From assembly GCF_900156165.1 (NCBI RefSeq), contig NZ_FTMY01000004.1, forward strand, positions 248,001 through 312,000: a DNA stretch of 64,000 nt, in the 5' to 3' direction. This document shows positions 33,424 through 40,344 of this stretch, piece by piece; the first letter of the stretch is position 1; the number at the start of each line of letters is the position of its first letter. The position numbers were made by a program, and so were the translations under genes. The notes under the pieces were generated by a model. The model worked only from the letters and a program-made list of their open reading frames with translations. It was not told where the DNA came from and did no database searches. The stretch comes from Pseudacidovorax sp. RU35E (GTDB lineage Bacteria > Pseudomonadota > Gammaproteobacteria > Burkholderiales > Burkholderiaceae_C).

Positions 33424-33724
33424 GAGCGGCTGCGTTTGGTCTACGCGAGCCGTTCGTTTGGAAGTTGTGAATGGCCGCTTTGCAGCGGTTGCGGTCGGTG
33501 GTCGGCGCGACTTCAACGCACGGTCACTTCCACGCAGCAGTCATTGGCCTAGCGCTGATCGCGTACGCTCAATGACCGCTGATGGATGTGCAGCCGACGT
33601 CGGGCGCGCCGGGGCGCGCTGAGGTCGCGCAAGCGACCGCTGTCTCCAGCGGCGAACTGGTACTCACGACCCGGAGCTGTCATACGTTGCAGCCATCTCG
33701 CAACCCCGAAGCAGTCGTAAAACT
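33424..33724. other. Gap at the left edge of the accessory island, with degenerate repeats
   Basis: No gene recognised. The segment holds forward copies of the degenerate repeat: GAATGGCCGCTTTGCAGCGG (33469-33488) and AATGACCGCTGATGG (33571-33585), with CGGTCGGTGGTCGG and CGGTCACTTC in between. It is the transition from high-GC chromosome to the lower-GC island. Confidence 0.45.
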
Positions 33725-35035
33725 TCAGGGTTCAGCGGCAGCCGGAGGCGGGCAGCCAACTGTGGCGGCTCCGTGTAAAGGTGGCCTCGGAGGCCCCACG
33801 AAAAAGTGCAGCTCGGGCAAGAACTGGCGATCGAAGAAGTCGGAGATCAACTCCCGATTGCCATCCCAATCTGGTTGGCCGTACATGGACGCGATGTCGA
33901 GATACTTCTCAGCGGCACGCCAATTTCCCATCTTTCCCGCAAGTGCAGCCACCTCGTTTACGACGTACCTCACGACATCCCGATCGCGCCCGAACCCCCA
34001 TTTGTAGGCGGACTGATAGCGCTCAAAGGCCTCCCCATGCCTTGCATTCAGCACAAGGTAGCGGCCCCACAGCCACTCGAGGGTGTGCCGTGTTTGGTCA
34101 GCGATCGGCTCCCAGGTCACTCGCTGCCGCTCCAGCATTTCTTCAATGAGAAAAGGATCTCGTGGAACGTCCGGCCTGTAGAGCGCCTCCCTGATCTTCC
34201 CGAACGGCCTGTCCGCTCCGATGTTCAGTTTCGTGCCGGCGTGCCACCCGACGGCCTTCCGGATTTCGTGGAACTGCTCAGTGACTGGCGCGGTCGGTTC
34301 GTACATGACCCGATTCAGGATGTGCTTGCGGTGCTCAAGCGACGTTTTCGCCAGCAGGCGAGCCACCAAAACCCACTGTCGGGCTCCAGCGTCGTGGGAC
34401 ATACCAAGAGCCTCCAAGATGTCATTGCAGGACTCCAGCGAAGGGACGTAGGCGCCGTTGAGCCATTCGCGGAGAGTCTGTTCGCAGTTCTCCGAGTCGA
34501 TCTCGTGGCGTTCTGCGCGGAAACTCCAGATCAGCCGGTGGTCTGCGGCACCTCTTACGCAAAGCCCTTTAAGGAACCTGGCGAAGGGGGCCTTGTCTTC
34601 CAAAAGGGACTTCAAATCCGTCACATGGAAGATGGTGTCCAGCGGATGAAGACACGACGCAGCTGCCGCCGAAAACATTGTTGGCCATAGGATCTGCTCT
34701 ACGACCTCCTCTCGCGTCAGGAGAGTTACATCCGCGTCGCCGATAGTCAATGCATAGTGCTCAAGAGCGCGGCGGATTTGCGAGAACGTGAGGTTTGCGT
34801 ACATCGCACTGTTCGTGTACTTGGCGAGGCGACTCTCCAGCTCTACCAAAATTTCAAGCGGGAGTGCAGCAGGACGCAGCGCAGGCCTCTTTCTGTCGTC
34901 TTTGAGCGCCTTTAGGTCTGCGTAAAGCTTGCTGTCCTCATCGGCGTTCGAGGACACCAAGCCGCTTCGGATAGCGCATTCATGGACGATCTCACCCAGG
35001 AGGGGGAACGGCGTGACGGGGAAGACTTTTTTCAT
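33725..35035 (-). CDS. Unknown protein with HTH-like segment and TPR-like C-terminus
   Basis: A 436-residue, mostly helical cytoplasmic protein not assigned to a named family. Residues about 186-212 (TLREWLNGAYVPSLESCNDILEALGM) resemble a helix-turn-helix of the XRE type. Residues about 320-390 (HTLEWLWGRYLVLNARHGEAFERYQSAYKWGFG... and NWRAAEKYLDIASMYG) look like tetratricopeptide-type helical pairs. The last 20 residues are Pro/Gly/Ala-rich and read into the flanking repeat, so the natural end may have been altered. It follows a 58-residue gene with a 42-base gap containing a hairpin. Lower GC than surrounding genes. Possibly a sensor/regulator; no catalytic motif seen. Confidence 0.6.
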   Translation of the reverse strand: MKKVFPVTPFPLLGEIVHECAIRSGLVSSNADEDSKLYADLKALKDDRKRPALRPAALPLEILVELESRLAKYTNSAMYANLTFSQIRRALEHYALTIGDADVTLLTREEVVEQILWPTMFSAAAASCLHPLDTIFHVTDLKSLLEDKAPFARFLKGLCVRGAADHRLIWSFRAERHEIDSENCEQTLREWLNGAYVPSLESCNDILEALGMSHDAGARQWVLVARLLAKTSLEHRKHILNRVMYEPTAPVTEQFHEIRKAVGWHAGTKLNIGADRPFGKIREALYRPDVPRDPFLIEEMLERQRVTWEPIADQTRHTLEWLWGRYLVLNARHGEAFERYQSAYKWGFGRDRDVVRYVVNEVAALAGKMGNWRAAEKYLDIASMYGQPDWDGNRELISDFFDRQFLPELHFFVGPPRPPLHGAATVGCPPPAAAEP

Positions 35036-35050
35036 CGGATTGGTCGATTC

Positions 35051-35068
35051 GGGGCTCGGCAGAGCCCC
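35051..35068. other. Stable hairpin between the 58-residue and 436-residue genes
   Basis: GGGGCTC-GGCA-GAGCCCC, a perfect 7-bp stem with a 4-base loop, in the 42-base gap upstream of the 436-residue gene. There is no T-run in either direction. It may attenuate or protect the transcript, setting the ratio of the two proteins. Confidence 0.5.
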
Positions 35069-35077
35069 GTACGTACA

Positions 35078-35254
35078 TCACTTATGCTTGAGGGCGCGCT
35101 GATTCTGGGCGGCGGCCCTTGCTGCGCGAGCCTCAAAGCCGCCCGCAGGGACTTGCCCGCTCCCCTTGTGCGAAGCGGCCTTGTAGATTCTGGCGACGGC
35201 CTTGGTCGTCATGGGAGCAGACTTCGCGGTGATTGCTGTTTTCGGTCTAGACAT
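35078..35254 (-). CDS. 58-residue basic small protein
   Basis: A 58-residue very basic protein (starts MSRPKTAITAKSAPMTTKAVARIYKAAS, ends AARAAAQNQRALKHK). The central pattern T-x-x-A-V-A-R-I-Y-K-A...G-x-V-P-x-G-x-F-x-A-R-A resembles the short seed-maturation-like (SMP) proteins common in proteobacteria, whose role is unknown. The start is well supported by AAAGGA seven bases upstream of the ATG. It lies directly upstream of the 436-residue gene on the same strand and is probably cotranscribed with it. Confidence 0.65.
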   Translation of the reverse strand: MSRPKTAITAKSAPMTTKAVARIYKAASHKGSGQVPAGGFEARAARAAAQNQRALKHK

Positions 35255-35651
35255 ACTCAATCCTTTCGTTGGTTCGCCGCACATGCGACGTGACGAAGCG
35301 TAGGGAATGAGTTCACAGCCGTCAGGGGGGGAACTTCGGAAAGTTGCCGAGTTCACTTCGTGGGAAGCTGCCCGACCCGAAAGCCGATGCTGGTGACAGG
35401 CAACTTATGGCCGGGACGGGCCGATGAGAGGCCCAGAGTCGTCGCCGCAAACCTGACCTTCGGGCGCTCGCCGCGACCAAACTTTCGAGCGCAGGGCGAT
35501 CGGCCGCTTATGGCCGGCAGTGTGAGTAGCTGCCTTGACCCGAAAGCGGCCCTCCAGTCTGGTTCGCGATGGGGTTGTGTTGACGCAGGGCAAGGACTTC
35601 GATGCTCAGTCGGCGCATCTTGTATGGCCCTCAACTCGATGGGAGACCATC
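35255..35651. repeat. Intergenic region with inverted and degenerate repeats upstream of the recombinase
   Basis: No gene recognised. It contains a perfect 8-bp inverted repeat GGCCGCTT (35502-35509) / AAGCGGCC (35544-35551). The phrases CTTATGGCCGG and GACCCGAAAGC each occur twice (about 35405/35507 and 35374/35537), so it looks like two decayed copies of one palindromic element in opposite orientation. They may be remnants of a recombination site for the adjacent integrase. Confidence 0.45.
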
Positions 35652-36275
35652 ATGGGCACCACAGGCAGCAATGCTCATCGCGAGCCTTGGAACAAAGGCA
35701 AGATCGTCGGGCAGAAAGCCCCGTTCAAGCCCAAGGACATCTGGGCTCTCCGCGTCCGATTCCAGATGGAGCACCGAGTGCGGGAACTCGCGCTGTTCAA
35801 TCTGGGAATCGACAGCAAGCTGCGCGGGTGCGATCTCGTCGCGCTGAAGGTCCGCGACATCTGTCATGGTGACCAGGTTGCCACGCGAGCCATCGTCTTG
35901 CAGCACAAGACCCAGCGCCCGGTCCAGTTCGAAATCACGCTGGCCACCCGGGAAGCCTTACAGGCGTGGATCAAGCAGGCTGACCTGAAGTCGGATGACT
36001 TCCTCTTCCCCAGCCGGCTCCATGACTCACCCCACCTCGGCACCCGCCAGTACGCCCGGATCCTCGGACACTGGGTCGACGAGCTCGGCCTGGACCGCGC
36101 CGACTACGGGACGCATTCGATGCGCAGGACGAAGGCCACGCTAATCTACCGGCGCACCAAGAACCTTCGCGCCGTCCAACTGCTGCTGGGCCACTCCAAG
36201 CTGGAGTCGACAGTTCGATACCTCGGCATCGAGGTTGATGACGCGCTCGAGATCTCTGAGCAAACAGAGATCTGA
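35652..36275 (+). CDS. Short tyrosine recombinase / integrase
   Basis: A 207-residue tyrosine recombinase made up almost entirely of the catalytic domain. The active-site Arg is in SKLRGCDLVALKV, the HxxR box reads HSMRR, the second His is in LLLGHSKLEST and the nucleophile Tyr in TVRYLGIE. The N-terminal core-binding domain of phage integrases is largely missing; the start ATG 35652 has GGGAGA upstream. Proteins of this short form are often found in accessory regions and may work on small elements. It sits in the middle of the island and is the likely mobility gene. Confidence 0.85.
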   Translation: MGTTGSNAHREPWNKGKIVGQKAPFKPKDIWALRVRFQMEHRVRELALFNLGIDSKLRGCDLVALKVRDICHGDQVATRAIVLQHKTQRPVQFEITLATREALQAWIKQADLKSDDFLFPSRLHDSPHLGTRQYARILGHWVDELGLDRADYGTHSMRRTKATLIYRRTKNLRAVQLLLGHSKLESTVRYLGIEVDDALEISEQTEI

Positions 36276-36667
36276 TCCAACAGACCGCTGGCCACACACG
36301 CAAGGCGGACGTGGTCAGCTACGAATGGCTGCTGCCTGGCGTGCTGCGGGACTCACGCATTCGGCCACAACCAGCCGTTCGCGAATGTCAGCTGACCGGC
36401 TGCATCCACATCTCGAAGAGGATGGATGAACGGCCACGAAAGTTCCAAGGGACGAACTGCTTCGCTTGTGGGATGACCGGCTTTTGCGACGTACTTGCGG
36501 CTACAGCTAGAACCTTGCATTCCAGCAGCGGCGACGGCAGCGATAACTGGGCGTTGTCGCCTGCGATCTACCAGCACTTTAGGTGACCTACTGCTCCGTT
36601 AGGAAATGCGGACAATCGGCGGCGGCAGGGCCTCGTGGACAGGGCTCGCGAACCAAAGGGGAGAGCC
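36276..36667. other. Gap between recombinase and nuclease-like gene, with degenerate repeats
   Basis: No gene recognised in 392 bases. Copies of the degenerate repeat are seen at 36324-36340 (AATGGCTGCTGCCTGGC) and 36472-36491 (GATGACCGGCTTTTGCGACG). The start region of the next gene carries AGGGGAGA just before its ATG. Confidence 0.4.
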
Positions 36668-38818
36668 ATGAAGCAACCGCGGGAAGAGGCCAAGATTCTT
36701 GAGGACCTGGCAACGCTGGCCGCCTCGCCCGGATATGTTCACGCTGTAGCGCACCTCTGTCATCGCGACAACGTCATACACATCCAGGGCGAGTTGAAGC
36801 CGGCTGACATGGACCGGCTATTCAGCAAAGAGCGGCTAATTCGGACGGAACTGACGACGGTGATTGGCTTGATGGCTAAGAAGCCGTTGGACCTGTCGCC
36901 GCAGCCACCCGACGTGGTCCAGAAGTACGTCAGGAGCACTGATTTGCTGATGCGAGAACTGCACGAAGCCATGTCCTACCCGATGTTCGCGGCCATGATC
37001 GAGGCGGTGAAAGTCGGTGAGGCGCCGCCGGAGCCATGGCGCGGAGCGGGAATGCGAGAGCCCATCTTCTACGGCACAGAGTCGGCCTACGCCTTCCAGT
37101 ACAGGGACTTCGTCCCTGAGAAGTACGGCGCAGATGACGCATGGCTGCAGAAGACCATGGGCTTCACCAGCGGCCAGGCGCGAGCCATCGCAAAGACGTT
37201 CTGTGACTTGATGGACGAGAAGGGAACGCGCCTCCTTGCGGACGCGCGAGTCGCCAAGGCTCCGCCTGCGACCTGGCTGCCCGCGTTCGAGTTCTCGGTG
37301 GACGAGGTTGTCTTCCGCAGCGGTGTCGCGAAGGACGTGGTGGATGCCTTCTTCCAGGCGCTCCTCTTTGCGGGGGACAACGCAGGGTTCAAGGAGGCCG
37401 GAGACTTCAACGAGGTCGCCGCTCGGCCGCTACTTCCTACCGACCGCGGAACCGTGCTCCTGTTCTCGCACTACGCGATTTACGAGGCCTTGTACGAGTC
37501 TCCGTTCTTCTGGATGTGGGATGACAAGACCTACCGGGCGACGGCTGCCAAGCATCGAGGCGCTTTCACCGAGAAGTTTGCTGCGCGCCGCCTGGCTGGT
37601 GTCTTCGGTCGCGAGCACGTTCACACGAACGTGAACCTGCATCGCGGTAAGGACATCGTGGGAGAGGCGGATGTCCTGGTCATCTACGGGGACCGACTCA
37701 TCATCGTGCAGGCGAAGGCGAAGAAGCTGACCATCGCGGCTCGCAAGGGGAACGATAGTCAGCTCAAGGCGGACTTCGCCGCTGCCATCCAAGACTCGTA
37801 TGACCAAGGCTGGACGTGCGCGAAAGAGATGCTCGCCGGCGGGTGCCGATTGGTGGACGACGAGGGGAACGAAGTCGCCCTTCCGGTGAACGTCAAGGAG
37901 GTCTTCCTGGTCAGCCTGGTGTCTGACCACTATCCGGCACTCGCCTTTCAGGCGAGCCAATCGCTGAAGTTCCAGACCACCGACGTCATTCGGCCTCCGT
38001 TCGTCATGGATGTGTTCCTTCTTGACACGTTGACGGAGATGTTGGCGACCCCGTTGCGGCTGTTGAGCTACGTGAAGCTGCGTGTGGACGTCGCGGACAA
38101 GCTGATGAGCGGGCACGAGTTGACTGTGCTCGGCTATCACCTGAGCAAGAACCTCTGGTTGGATGAGAAGAGCGACCTCGTCATACTCGACGACTCTCTC
38201 GCCCAGCCGATGGACGTGGCGATGCTGGTCCGCCGGGATAACCAGCCGGGCGACGACACCCCGGCTGGCATCCTCACGAAGATGCGCGGGACTCGGTACG
38301 AAAGCCTCATCAAGGAGCTCGAGGCAAGGGCAGACCCCGCTACTCTCGAACTCGGGTTCCACTTGCTGTCGATGGACGAGGAATCGTCCAGAAACGTGCA
38401 TCGGCTGCTCGAGGCCGTCACGAGGAAGACCCAGGTTGACGGCCAGCGACACGACGTAACGCTCGCGTCGCGCACGCCCCCTTCCGGGGTCTGCTTCCAC
38501 TGCAATCCCAAGCCATCCCTCGAAGCGATTGCAGTGTTAGAGAGGCACTGCGCCAAACGCAAGTACGAGCTGCGTGCACCTCAGTGGTTTGGTGTCTCCG
38601 TCGGCCCGGCCGGGGATGTCCAGTTCGGCGCTACGCTGGACTTCCCCTGGGAGGCCTCAGAGGAGATGGACAAACTCACCGAAGGCATGAAGGAGCCGCT
38701 GCTCGTGCGCGATGCCCTTCCCGGGTACGTGCGAGAGGCGGGGAAAATGAAGATCGGGCGAAACGACCCGTGCCACTGCGGCAGCGGACGCAAGTACAAG
38801 AAGTGCTGCTTGCCCTAG
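36668..38818 (+). CDS. PD-(D/E)XK nuclease-like protein with C-terminal SEC-C zinc motif
   Basis: A 716-residue protein of unknown family. Residues about 295-375 carry a PD-(D/E)XK nuclease signature: E302 in the leading helix (FTEKFAARRLAGVFG), E333/D335 in GEADVLVIYGD, and Q348-x-K350 in IIVQAKAKK, as in many restriction and NERD-type nucleases. The C-terminus (residues 696-714, RNDPCHCGSGRKYKKCC) is a complete SEC-C zinc-binding motif. The N-terminal 290 and the central 375-690 residues are unlike anything I recognise. The start is set by AGGGGAGA. It lies in a lower-GC island beside a recombinase, which suggests a DNA- or RNA-degrading defence protein; this role is inference. Confidence 0.75.
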   Translation: MKQPREEAKILEDLATLAASPGYVHAVAHLCHRDNVIHIQGELKPADMDRLFSKERLIRTELTTVIGLMAKKPLDLSPQPPDVVQKYVRSTDLLMRELHEAMSYPMFAAMIEAVKVGEAPPEPWRGAGMREPIFYGTESAYAFQYRDFVPEKYGADDAWLQKTMGFTSGQARAIAKTFCDLMDEKGTRLLADARVAKAPPATWLPAFEFSVDEVVFRSGVAKDVVDAFFQALLFAGDNAGFKEAGDFNEVAARPLLPTDRGTVLLFSHYAIYEALYESPFFWMWDDKTYRATAAKHRGAFTEKFAARRLAGVFGREHVHTNVNLHRGKDIVGEADVLVIYGDRLIIVQAKAKKLTIAARKGNDSQLKADFAAAIQDSYDQGWTCAKEMLAGGCRLVDDEGNEVALPVNVKEVFLVSLVSDHYPALAFQASQSLKFQTTDVIRPPFVMDVFLLDTLTEMLATPLRLLSYVKLRVDVADKLMSGHELTVLGYHLSKNLWLDEKSDLVILDDSLAQPMDVAMLVRRDNQPGDDTPAGILTKMRGTRYESLIKELEARADPATLELGFHLLSMDEESSRNVHRLLEAVTRKTQVDGQRHDVTLASRTPPSGVCFHCNPKPSLEAIAVLERHCAKRKYELRAPQWFGVSVGPAGDVQFGATLDFPWEASEEMDKLTEGMKEPLLVRDALPGYVREAGKMKIGRNDPCHCGSGRKYKKCCLP

Positions 38819-39261
38819 TCGGGGCATCCGGCATACCGAGGGCACCTGGTCGCGTCGATTCTTCTGGATCGAAGGTCGCTGTCGAATGGCTGCTTTTCGA
38901 CGTTAAGACTGACCCCCTCGAAGACCGCTCCGGGTCGAACTGAGCCACTTGCTGTAAACAAGAGCGGTCGGTCGCGCCGGGCCTCAACCGTCGTAGCGGA
39001 CGGGCGACCGGATTCGGGAATGAAGCAGTCGGTCGACGCCGCCGAGCGTCAGTGACCGGTGCTGGTGCGAGCGGTCATTCAGGCCCCAGGCTGCGACTGA
39101 CTCAGATCAGTCTGAAGCAGACGCCTCCAACAGCAACTGAAATTGGAGCTTGAGCGCAATACCGGCCAGAATCTGCACAGGCTAAGCCGTCTCCGACCAA
39201 ACGCGCACTGGGACAATTTGCCTAGTTCCCACCCGTTCCAACGACGTATCCAATCAGCCCG
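38819..39261. other. Gap at the right edge of the accessory island, with degenerate repeats
   Basis: No gene recognised in 443 bases. Forward repeat GAATGGCTGCTTTTCGACG lies at 38884-38902 and a reverse-oriented copy GAGCGGTCATTC at 39069-39080, with several CGGTCGGTCG-like fragments between. Composition returns to the high-GC chromosome on the right. Confidence 0.45.
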
Positions 39262-39489
39262 ATGGAATGGGTCCCCGTCGCCTTCATCGCTCTGAAGGCC
39301 CTCGTCTTCGTCGCCACCATGTTCTTCGCCATCAAGTGGCATTACGAACAGGGTCAGAGCCTCAGCAAGCGGGCGCTGCTGCTCACGGCTGGCAAGGTGG
39401 CGGCCGTGTTCGTGGTGGTGCTGGCGGCTGTGCTGCTGCTCACCTTCGGCGTCGCTGCGGGGCTGGGTATGGAACTGCGGCTCCCCTGA
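39262..39489 (+). CDS. Small two-span membrane protein
   Basis: A 75-residue inner-membrane protein with two hydrophobic segments (about residues 4-24 and 45-70) separated by a short hydrophilic loop (KWHYEQGQSLSKRALL). No known motif. Protein-like composition and high GC indicate a resident chromosomal gene just outside the island. Confidence 0.6.
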   Translation: MEWVPVAFIALKALVFVATMFFAIKWHYEQGQSLSKRALLLTAGKVAAVFVVVLAAVLLLTFGVAAGLGMELRLP

Positions 39490-39561
39490 GTCCGGCACTG
39501 CCGCGGAGCGCGTGTCGGCGGCGTGCGGCTTGGACCGCGCGTCCGTGCCCGCACCCGGGCG

Positions 39562-40344
39562 TCAGGCGCGCTTGCGGAACAGCGGCGATGCGCCGCTGGC
39601 CCGCGAGACGTCCTGCGCCGTCTCGAGCAGGGCGGGCCCCAACGCCTCCATGCGCTGCACCGTGAGCCGCACCGCGGGCCCCGCGATGGTGACGACGCCG
39701 ATGGCCTTGCCGTCGGGTCCGGCCACCGGCGCAGCCATCGCGGTCATGCCCGGCGCAAACACTTCGTTGATCATGCTGAAACCGCGCTGGCGCGCCGACT
39801 TCACATAGGTCATCACGGCCTTGATGGAGGTGGGCGCCTTGGGGCCGAAATTCTTGGGGCTGCCCAGGCCGCGGCGCGCGACGATGGCCAGGGCCTCGTC
39901 GTCGTCCAGCGTCGACAGCCAGGCATGACCGGCCGCGCTGCACGAAAGCTCCACCGACAGGCCCATGTCCGGGTCGTAGCGCAGGCCGCGCACCGCACCC
40001 TGGGCCTTGGCCACGAAGGTGAGTTCCTCGCCATCGACCACGGCCAAACGCACCAGCTCGCCCGACGCCTCGGCCAGCCGCTCCAGCAGCGGCTGCGCCA
40101 CGTCCACCACGCCCGAGCGGCTGAGGAAGGCCAGGCCCAGGGCCGCGAGCTTGATGGTGATCTGGTAGTGCCCATCGCGCTCGTCCTGCCGCACATGGCC
40201 GCAGCGCACCAGGTCCGACAGGATGCGGTGGGTGGCCGACAGCGGCAGCTGCAACTCGCTGGCAAGCACCGACAGCGCACATCCCTGCGGATGGTCGGCA
40301 AGGTATTCGAGCACCTTGAAGCTGCGTTCCATCACACCACTCAT
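39562..40344 (-). CDS. IclR-family transcriptional regulator
   Basis: A 260-residue IclR-family regulator. The winged HTH (MERSFKVLEYLADHPQGCALSVLASELQLPLSATHRILSDLVRCGHV) is followed by the effector-binding domain with YVKSARQRGFSMINEVFAPGMTAMAAPV. The start may be MSGV (40344) or MERS (40332). It is divergent from the TRAP/3-dehydroquinate dehydratase operon; a perfect palindrome in the intergenic region is its probable operator. IclR proteins commonly respond to aromatic or hydroaromatic acids, which fits the target operon. Confidence 0.88.
   Translation of the reverse strand: MSGVMERSFKVLEYLADHPQGCALSVLASELQLPLSATHRILSDLVRCGHVRQDERDGHYQITIKLAALGLAFLSRSGVVDVAQPLLERLAEASGELVRLAVVDGEELTFVAKAQGAVRGLRYDPDMGLSVELSCSAAGHAWLSTLDDDEALAIVARRGLGSPKNFGPKAPTSIKAVMTYVKSARQRGFSMINEVFAPGMTAMAAPVAGPDGKAIGVVTIAGPAVRLTVQRMEALGPALLETAQDVSRASGASPLFRKRA

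Follow-up and report, generated by a model that had tools for sequence, protein, structure and literature searches.

Within a variable island of the 64,000-nucleotide window that we analysed from Pseudacidovorax sp. RU35E lies a gene whose 716-residue product we think fairly likely to be a stand-alone anti-phage (or anti-mobile-element) protein, built from a NERD-type nuclease, an Upx-like body and a SEC-C tail. Sequence and structural model together indicate that the product probably cuts DNA and ends in a metal-binding tail. The gene is rare and mobile and often sits beside defence genes, and on the same evidence it probably encodes a single-protein defence of Upx-like fold.

The gene and its product

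The frame is open throughout and encodes 716 residues, the length of most homologues among the matches listed (120 of 1734); an alternative GTG start 33 bases upstream would give a 727-aa form. GC content is 0.616 for this gene, 0.614 for the tyrosine recombinase gene and 0.587 for the 436-aa gene, the lowest of the island's three larger genes, versus 0.66–0.71 in seven flanking genes, in line with the low GC relative to neighbours that a first-pass annotation had reported from the sequence. That annotation also called the nuclease possibly undescribed, which is only partly so: relatives are already named 'nuclease-related domain-containing protein', and the predicted fold appears to resemble Upx. 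Database names of some other relatives are 'preprotein translocase' or 'prepilin peptidase'.

Table 1 Features of the candidate nuclease gene and its island (window positions)
Feature	Position	Strand	Basis or remark
Variable slot (island)	33474..39186		Flanks conserved in some congeners
436-aa protein, low GC, island cargo	33725..35035	-	No assigned family
Tyrosine recombinase, 246 aa	35535..36275	+	PF00589, E 6.8e-18
Candidate nuclease gene, PD-(D/E)XK (NERD-like) with SEC-C tail	36668..38818	+	716 aa
N-terminal region, residues 1-252, predicted nearly all-helical	36668..37423	+	Model secondary structure
Predicted nuclease core, residues 290-418	37535..37921	+	Pfam, alignment, profile comparison, structural model
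C-terminal region, residues 419-697, predicted mixed helix/strand, without Pfam match	37922..38758	+	Pfam, model
SEC-C metal-binding motif, residues 698-716	38759..38815	+	PF02810, 34.2 bits (cut-off 20.4), E 2.2e-8

A NERD-like PD-(D/E)XK core

The structural model (mean pLDDT 89.1) folds the core as a helix (290-313, carrying E302), three strands (318-326; 329-340 with E333 and D335; 343-350 with Q348 and K350), a second helix (363-390) and a final strand (411-418), which is the PD-(D/E)XK topology. The first-pass annotation had proposed such a core and expected its catalytic residues to cluster; the predicted topology is the expected one, and its adjacent strands would bring these residues close in space. 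E302, E333, D335, Q348 and K350 are identical in all 52 rows of an alignment made of the query and 51 of 56 loci (L011-L066), from which five split-frame loci were excluded and in which near-identical pairs were retained. The alignment bears out the positions given earlier for these five residues and for C702, C704, C713 and C714. The chance that all five catalytic residues would fall among the 45 invariant columns of 716 is about 8e-7 if columns are treated as exchangeable, which is not quite true.

Several comparisons relate this core to NERD (PF08378). A Pfam hmmscan matched residues 297-385 with 18.7 bits, below the cut-off of 22.1, and a six-frame NERD search gave the same stretch 22.8 bits, just above it; 43 of 51 family members match NERD at E <= 0.01. 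When a profile of residues 285-400 was compared with seven NERD domains of other proteins, 95 columns aligned (E 2.4e-4, probability only 43%), placing the E, D and E-x-K of NERD opposite the leading E, the GE-x-D strand and Q-x-K of the family; the N- and C-terminal parts gave no alignment to NERD in this profile–profile comparison. Sequence and model give good support to a PD-(D/E)XK-type nuclease fold. What aligns with NERD proteins is this core (residues 297-385); the protein differs from those of the Mokosh type I and Nhi-like kinds in having no helicase and in carrying a SEC-C tail.

PMC10952713 lists NERD for Mokosh type I and Nhi-like systems, PMC9009780 assigns a NERD domain to PglW, and PMC12458937 describes a rare defence system that combines a NERD-type PD-(D/E)xK endonuclease with a YprA-like helicase and TOTE-like genes. 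A Vibrio integrase-linked cluster with a NERD protein, which may or may not be of the same family, is tied to phage infectivity in PMC12409351, and in PMC10910872 NERD appears just in a figure legend. In PMC9040797 the authors state that, to their knowledge, the importance of NERD had not previously been studied in any bacterial protein. Our literature search, in a PMC collection with a minority of subscription papers, listed no paper describing a NERD/SEC-C protein as a defence gene; the term 'Upx' is absent from PMC9090908 and PMC12458937.

The SEC-C tail and the regions around the core

The tail motif C702-x-C704-x8-C713-C714 is complete, as had been noted from the sequence. Each of its four cysteines occurs in 45 or 46 of the 52 rows; the exceptions are six gaps, of which some may reflect truncated sequences, and one H. 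SEC-C was matched in 48 of 51 family members at E <= 0.01. SecA, YecA and YchJ end in an identical C-x-C-x8-C-C motif, and the likeness to them is limited to the tail. Adjoining the E. coli homologue (L065 15001-17151) is the gene of a 778-aa 'YecA family' SEC-C protein (L065 17525-19861), whose C-terminal part has 25% identity to residues 448-713, tail included (pairwise, E 6e-8).

Seven residues of the N-terminal region are invariant (E61, H99, E131, Y135, Q144, D156 and W159, encoded within 36848-37144 of the window); they are charged, polar or aromatic and possibly form a second functional site. Among solved structures, the best-placed fold for the model is Upx (PDB 9wuf, going by its entry title), which residues 6-552 appear to resemble. 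The first-pass statement that about 600 residues match no family stands for Pfam, though not without this likeness in fold. Upx is reportedly a single-gene defence protein, described by Gao et al. in 2020. Its identity to the 716-aa protein is 12%, its chain has 1212 residues compared with 716, and the SEC-C tail belongs to the candidate nuclease. At the level of sequence, 9wuf was not among the eight PDB matches at E <= 10, and no Upx model was among the PADLOC matches at E <= 1, a collection that may contain no Upx model.

The next solved folds were the BspD6I nickase/restriction subunits, Cdn1/Can2/Card1, chain M of McrBC and chain A of HamAB. The BspD6I nicking and restriction subunits have 8-12% identity to the protein, and no target-recognition domain or methylase emerged when the three larger ORFs of the island were scanned with Pfam. 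The same three ORFs contained no match to a HamB-type helicase, as would accompany HamA of Hachiman, and no CARF domain of the Can2/Card1/Cdn1 kind apart from one CARF_PDDEXK match, weak at E 0.043, within the nuclease part. Similarity of structure by itself shows no function.

It seems improbable to us that the protein is an abortive effector that cuts RNA with its core and is guided by its SEC-C tail to partners in translation or secretion. A passage of PMC8076867 reports binding of SecB by the SEC-C of SecA and suggests YecA as a SecB interactor, and in E. coli the gene adjoins that of another SEC-C protein. The tail, however, is absent from six of the 52 rows, some of them perhaps truncated. 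The closest folds are also mostly those of proteins that act on DNA, though Can2/Card1-type enzymes are able to cut RNA too. A DNA-cutting enzyme is the reading that we prefer.

A variable island with exchangeable cargo

Slot boundaries come from comparing flanks with four of the seven other same-genus genomes that have an IclR match. On the left, homology ends at about 33473-33488 in three of the four (the left edge of G624 is unaligned); on the right it restarts at about 39187-39208 in all four. In G177 and G620 the slot is about 0.96 kb. In G623 it is 5.95 kb and holds PycC (E 1e-219), PycTIR (E 7e-116), a PycTM/2TM effector, an E2 protein and a WYL regulator. Because Pycsar-type genes fill the slot in this congener, we regard it as a site of defence-cargo exchange; in our view nothing else at this locus argues more strongly that the gene serves in defence. 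The Pycsar-type gene set of G623 spans L106 9805-14583. Beside the IclR gene, at 39485-39562 of the window, about 4 kb present in four congeners is missing.

The 436-aa protein has 12 homologues among 8000 scored candidates; nothing in Pfam matched it above cut-off, and searches of NCBIfam, PADLOC and PHROG were negative. Searches of the island found no structured RNA at Rfam gathering scores and no convincing flanking repeats as attachment sites. The analysis supports the mobile island that had been proposed.

The tyrosine recombinase does adjoin the gene, as the first-pass annotation had said, and such a neighbour is no feature of the family: a similar recombinase lies in the flank examined of 6 of 42 family loci and of none of 20 control regions. 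An obligate pair was therefore rejected, and the recombinase probably serves the mobility of the island and is no fixed partner. Pfam found Phage_integrase in 3 of 120 neighbour ORFs. Those flanking recombinases, together with the one here and one directly upstream in 3 of 12 plasmid regions, would also suit a protein that mobile islands use for DNA repair or for their own maintenance and that plays no part in defence. Against such a role, which we judge very unlikely, no partner gene recurs, and defence-system genes are commoner among the neighbours than in controls.

Gene neighbourhoods

The largest non-self cluster of neighbouring genes occurs in 5 of 56 loci, and a conserved operon partner was rejected, since no non-family gene is found in more than that number. 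In two Pseudomonas loci (L033 and L047) the gene is preceded, at a distance of about 145 bases, by a UvrD-type helicase gene of the same orientation, an arrangement seen at no other locus.

We compared the six nearest ORFs at each of 20 loci (120 of the 140 picked) with 116 of 138 ORFs from 20 control regions at other places in these genomes; six control ORFs were excluded for their great length. Loci and controls came from 20 of 27 genomes, and the controls were picked by the analyst at round coordinates. At E <= 1e-40, PADLOC matches in the pooled neighbour set, tallied without assignment to loci, included HamA/B, LmuA/B, GajA/B, QatC/D and JukA (among 25 of 28 families listed, with one member each; GajB models match ordinary UvrD helicases too), whereas the control set gave only mad3 and MzaA. 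When ten neighbours were scanned one by one, three matched at this threshold (HamA and HamB in L032, LmuB in L020) and the remaining seven did not. A GmrSD-type pair also lies near relatives of the candidate nuclease. These neighbours support the defence-island setting suggested earlier; defence islands gather other cargo too.

On plasmids the neighbours include Avs2 (Azonexus), MkoA/MkoB (Agrobacterium, Rhizobium) and PDC-M16A (Shewanella). We examined 12 of the 34 plasmid regions by annotation or PADLOC, without a plasmid control; seven have a defence-type neighbour and five none that was clear. Relatives in L061 and L068 have Mokosh genes next to them; in the island of the window, the three larger ORFs contain no MkoA helicase or MkoB PLD protein, as in Mokosh type I, by Pfam or PADLOC. 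The Mokosh genes of L068 (3003-7846) and L061 (3624-8815) are annotated just as helicase/AAA domain protein, 'phosphatidylserine synthase' or PLD-like protein.

Distribution and mobility

Of 8000 candidates scored, 1734 proteins matched at E <= 0.001; Proteobacteria, Acidobacteria, Bacteroidota and Cyanobacteria all have relatives that are full-length or nearly so. The gene is rare in the genomes surveyed: 3 of 200 in the taxonomic family (own genome included, the other two copies being fragments), 5 of 398 in the phylum (own included, one with an internal stop) and 7 of 5426 in E. coli. These are counts of a rare accessory gene, not of the core chromosomal housekeeping gene that would have spoken against the first-pass proposal. 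Interrupted, split or fragmentary copies occur at loci L026, L039, L041 and L049 and in genomes G066, G096 and G464, suggesting gene loss or assembly errors. In a quick tree with some long branches, rows cluster mostly by class (6 changes versus a minimum of 4).

Forty-two loci lie in named genomes and five in IMG/VR contigs. A phage-borne gene was rejected on 0 matches in 50,697 phage records, though those five contigs carry one. The E. coli copies have 99.5-99.6% DNA identity to a Providencia copy, which, between different genera, suggests that the gene was transferred recently. In the two E. coli genomes examined, a guaA-linked element carries the gene along with trbJ/trbL, an integrase, a PIN protein and two DUF262 (GmrSD-type) genes. 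Taken together, the genome, plasmid, neighbourhood and slot surveys found the family patchy, mobile and in defence islands.

Family genes are found on 34 of 72,556 plasmids. Of these 34, 22 were typed as conjugative, and 19 come from Agrobacterium and are nearly identical around the gene. With the trbJ/trbL genes of the guaA-linked element, this fits a nuclease that serves its carrier islands and plasmids by attacking rival mobile elements, in an anti-plasmid or anti-ICE role, and not phages. We consider such a specialization unlikely: 10 of the 34 plasmids are typed non-mobilizable, and neighbours that have names are mostly anti-phage systems, some of which act on plasmids too.

Proposed function

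For nuclease activity, substrate, trigger and the role of the tail, we infer the following scheme. Residues 290-418 would form a metal-dependent NERD-type PD-(D/E)XK nuclease with E302, D335 (and E333), Q348 and K350 as its active site. As an Upx-like body, the helical N-terminal region and the part that follows the core would probably sense a trigger or keep the enzyme inactive, and the SEC-C tail may be a small metal-binding docking module. Infection would release the enzyme, which would then cleave phage DNA or all cellular DNA.

A bolder version is a long shot in our estimation: the protein would be the founding member of an Upx-like single-protein immunity class in which a helical sensor holds the nuclease and a SecA-type SEC-C tail directs it to SecB, ribosomes or nascent phage proteins; translation or secretion would thereby report infection.

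If the stand-alone defence reading is true, a large family (the 1734 homologues above) would act in single-gene defence, and the Upx fold would take in a shorter version that carries a metal-binding tail. Because E. coli has a natural copy, the family can be tested directly in laboratory strains.
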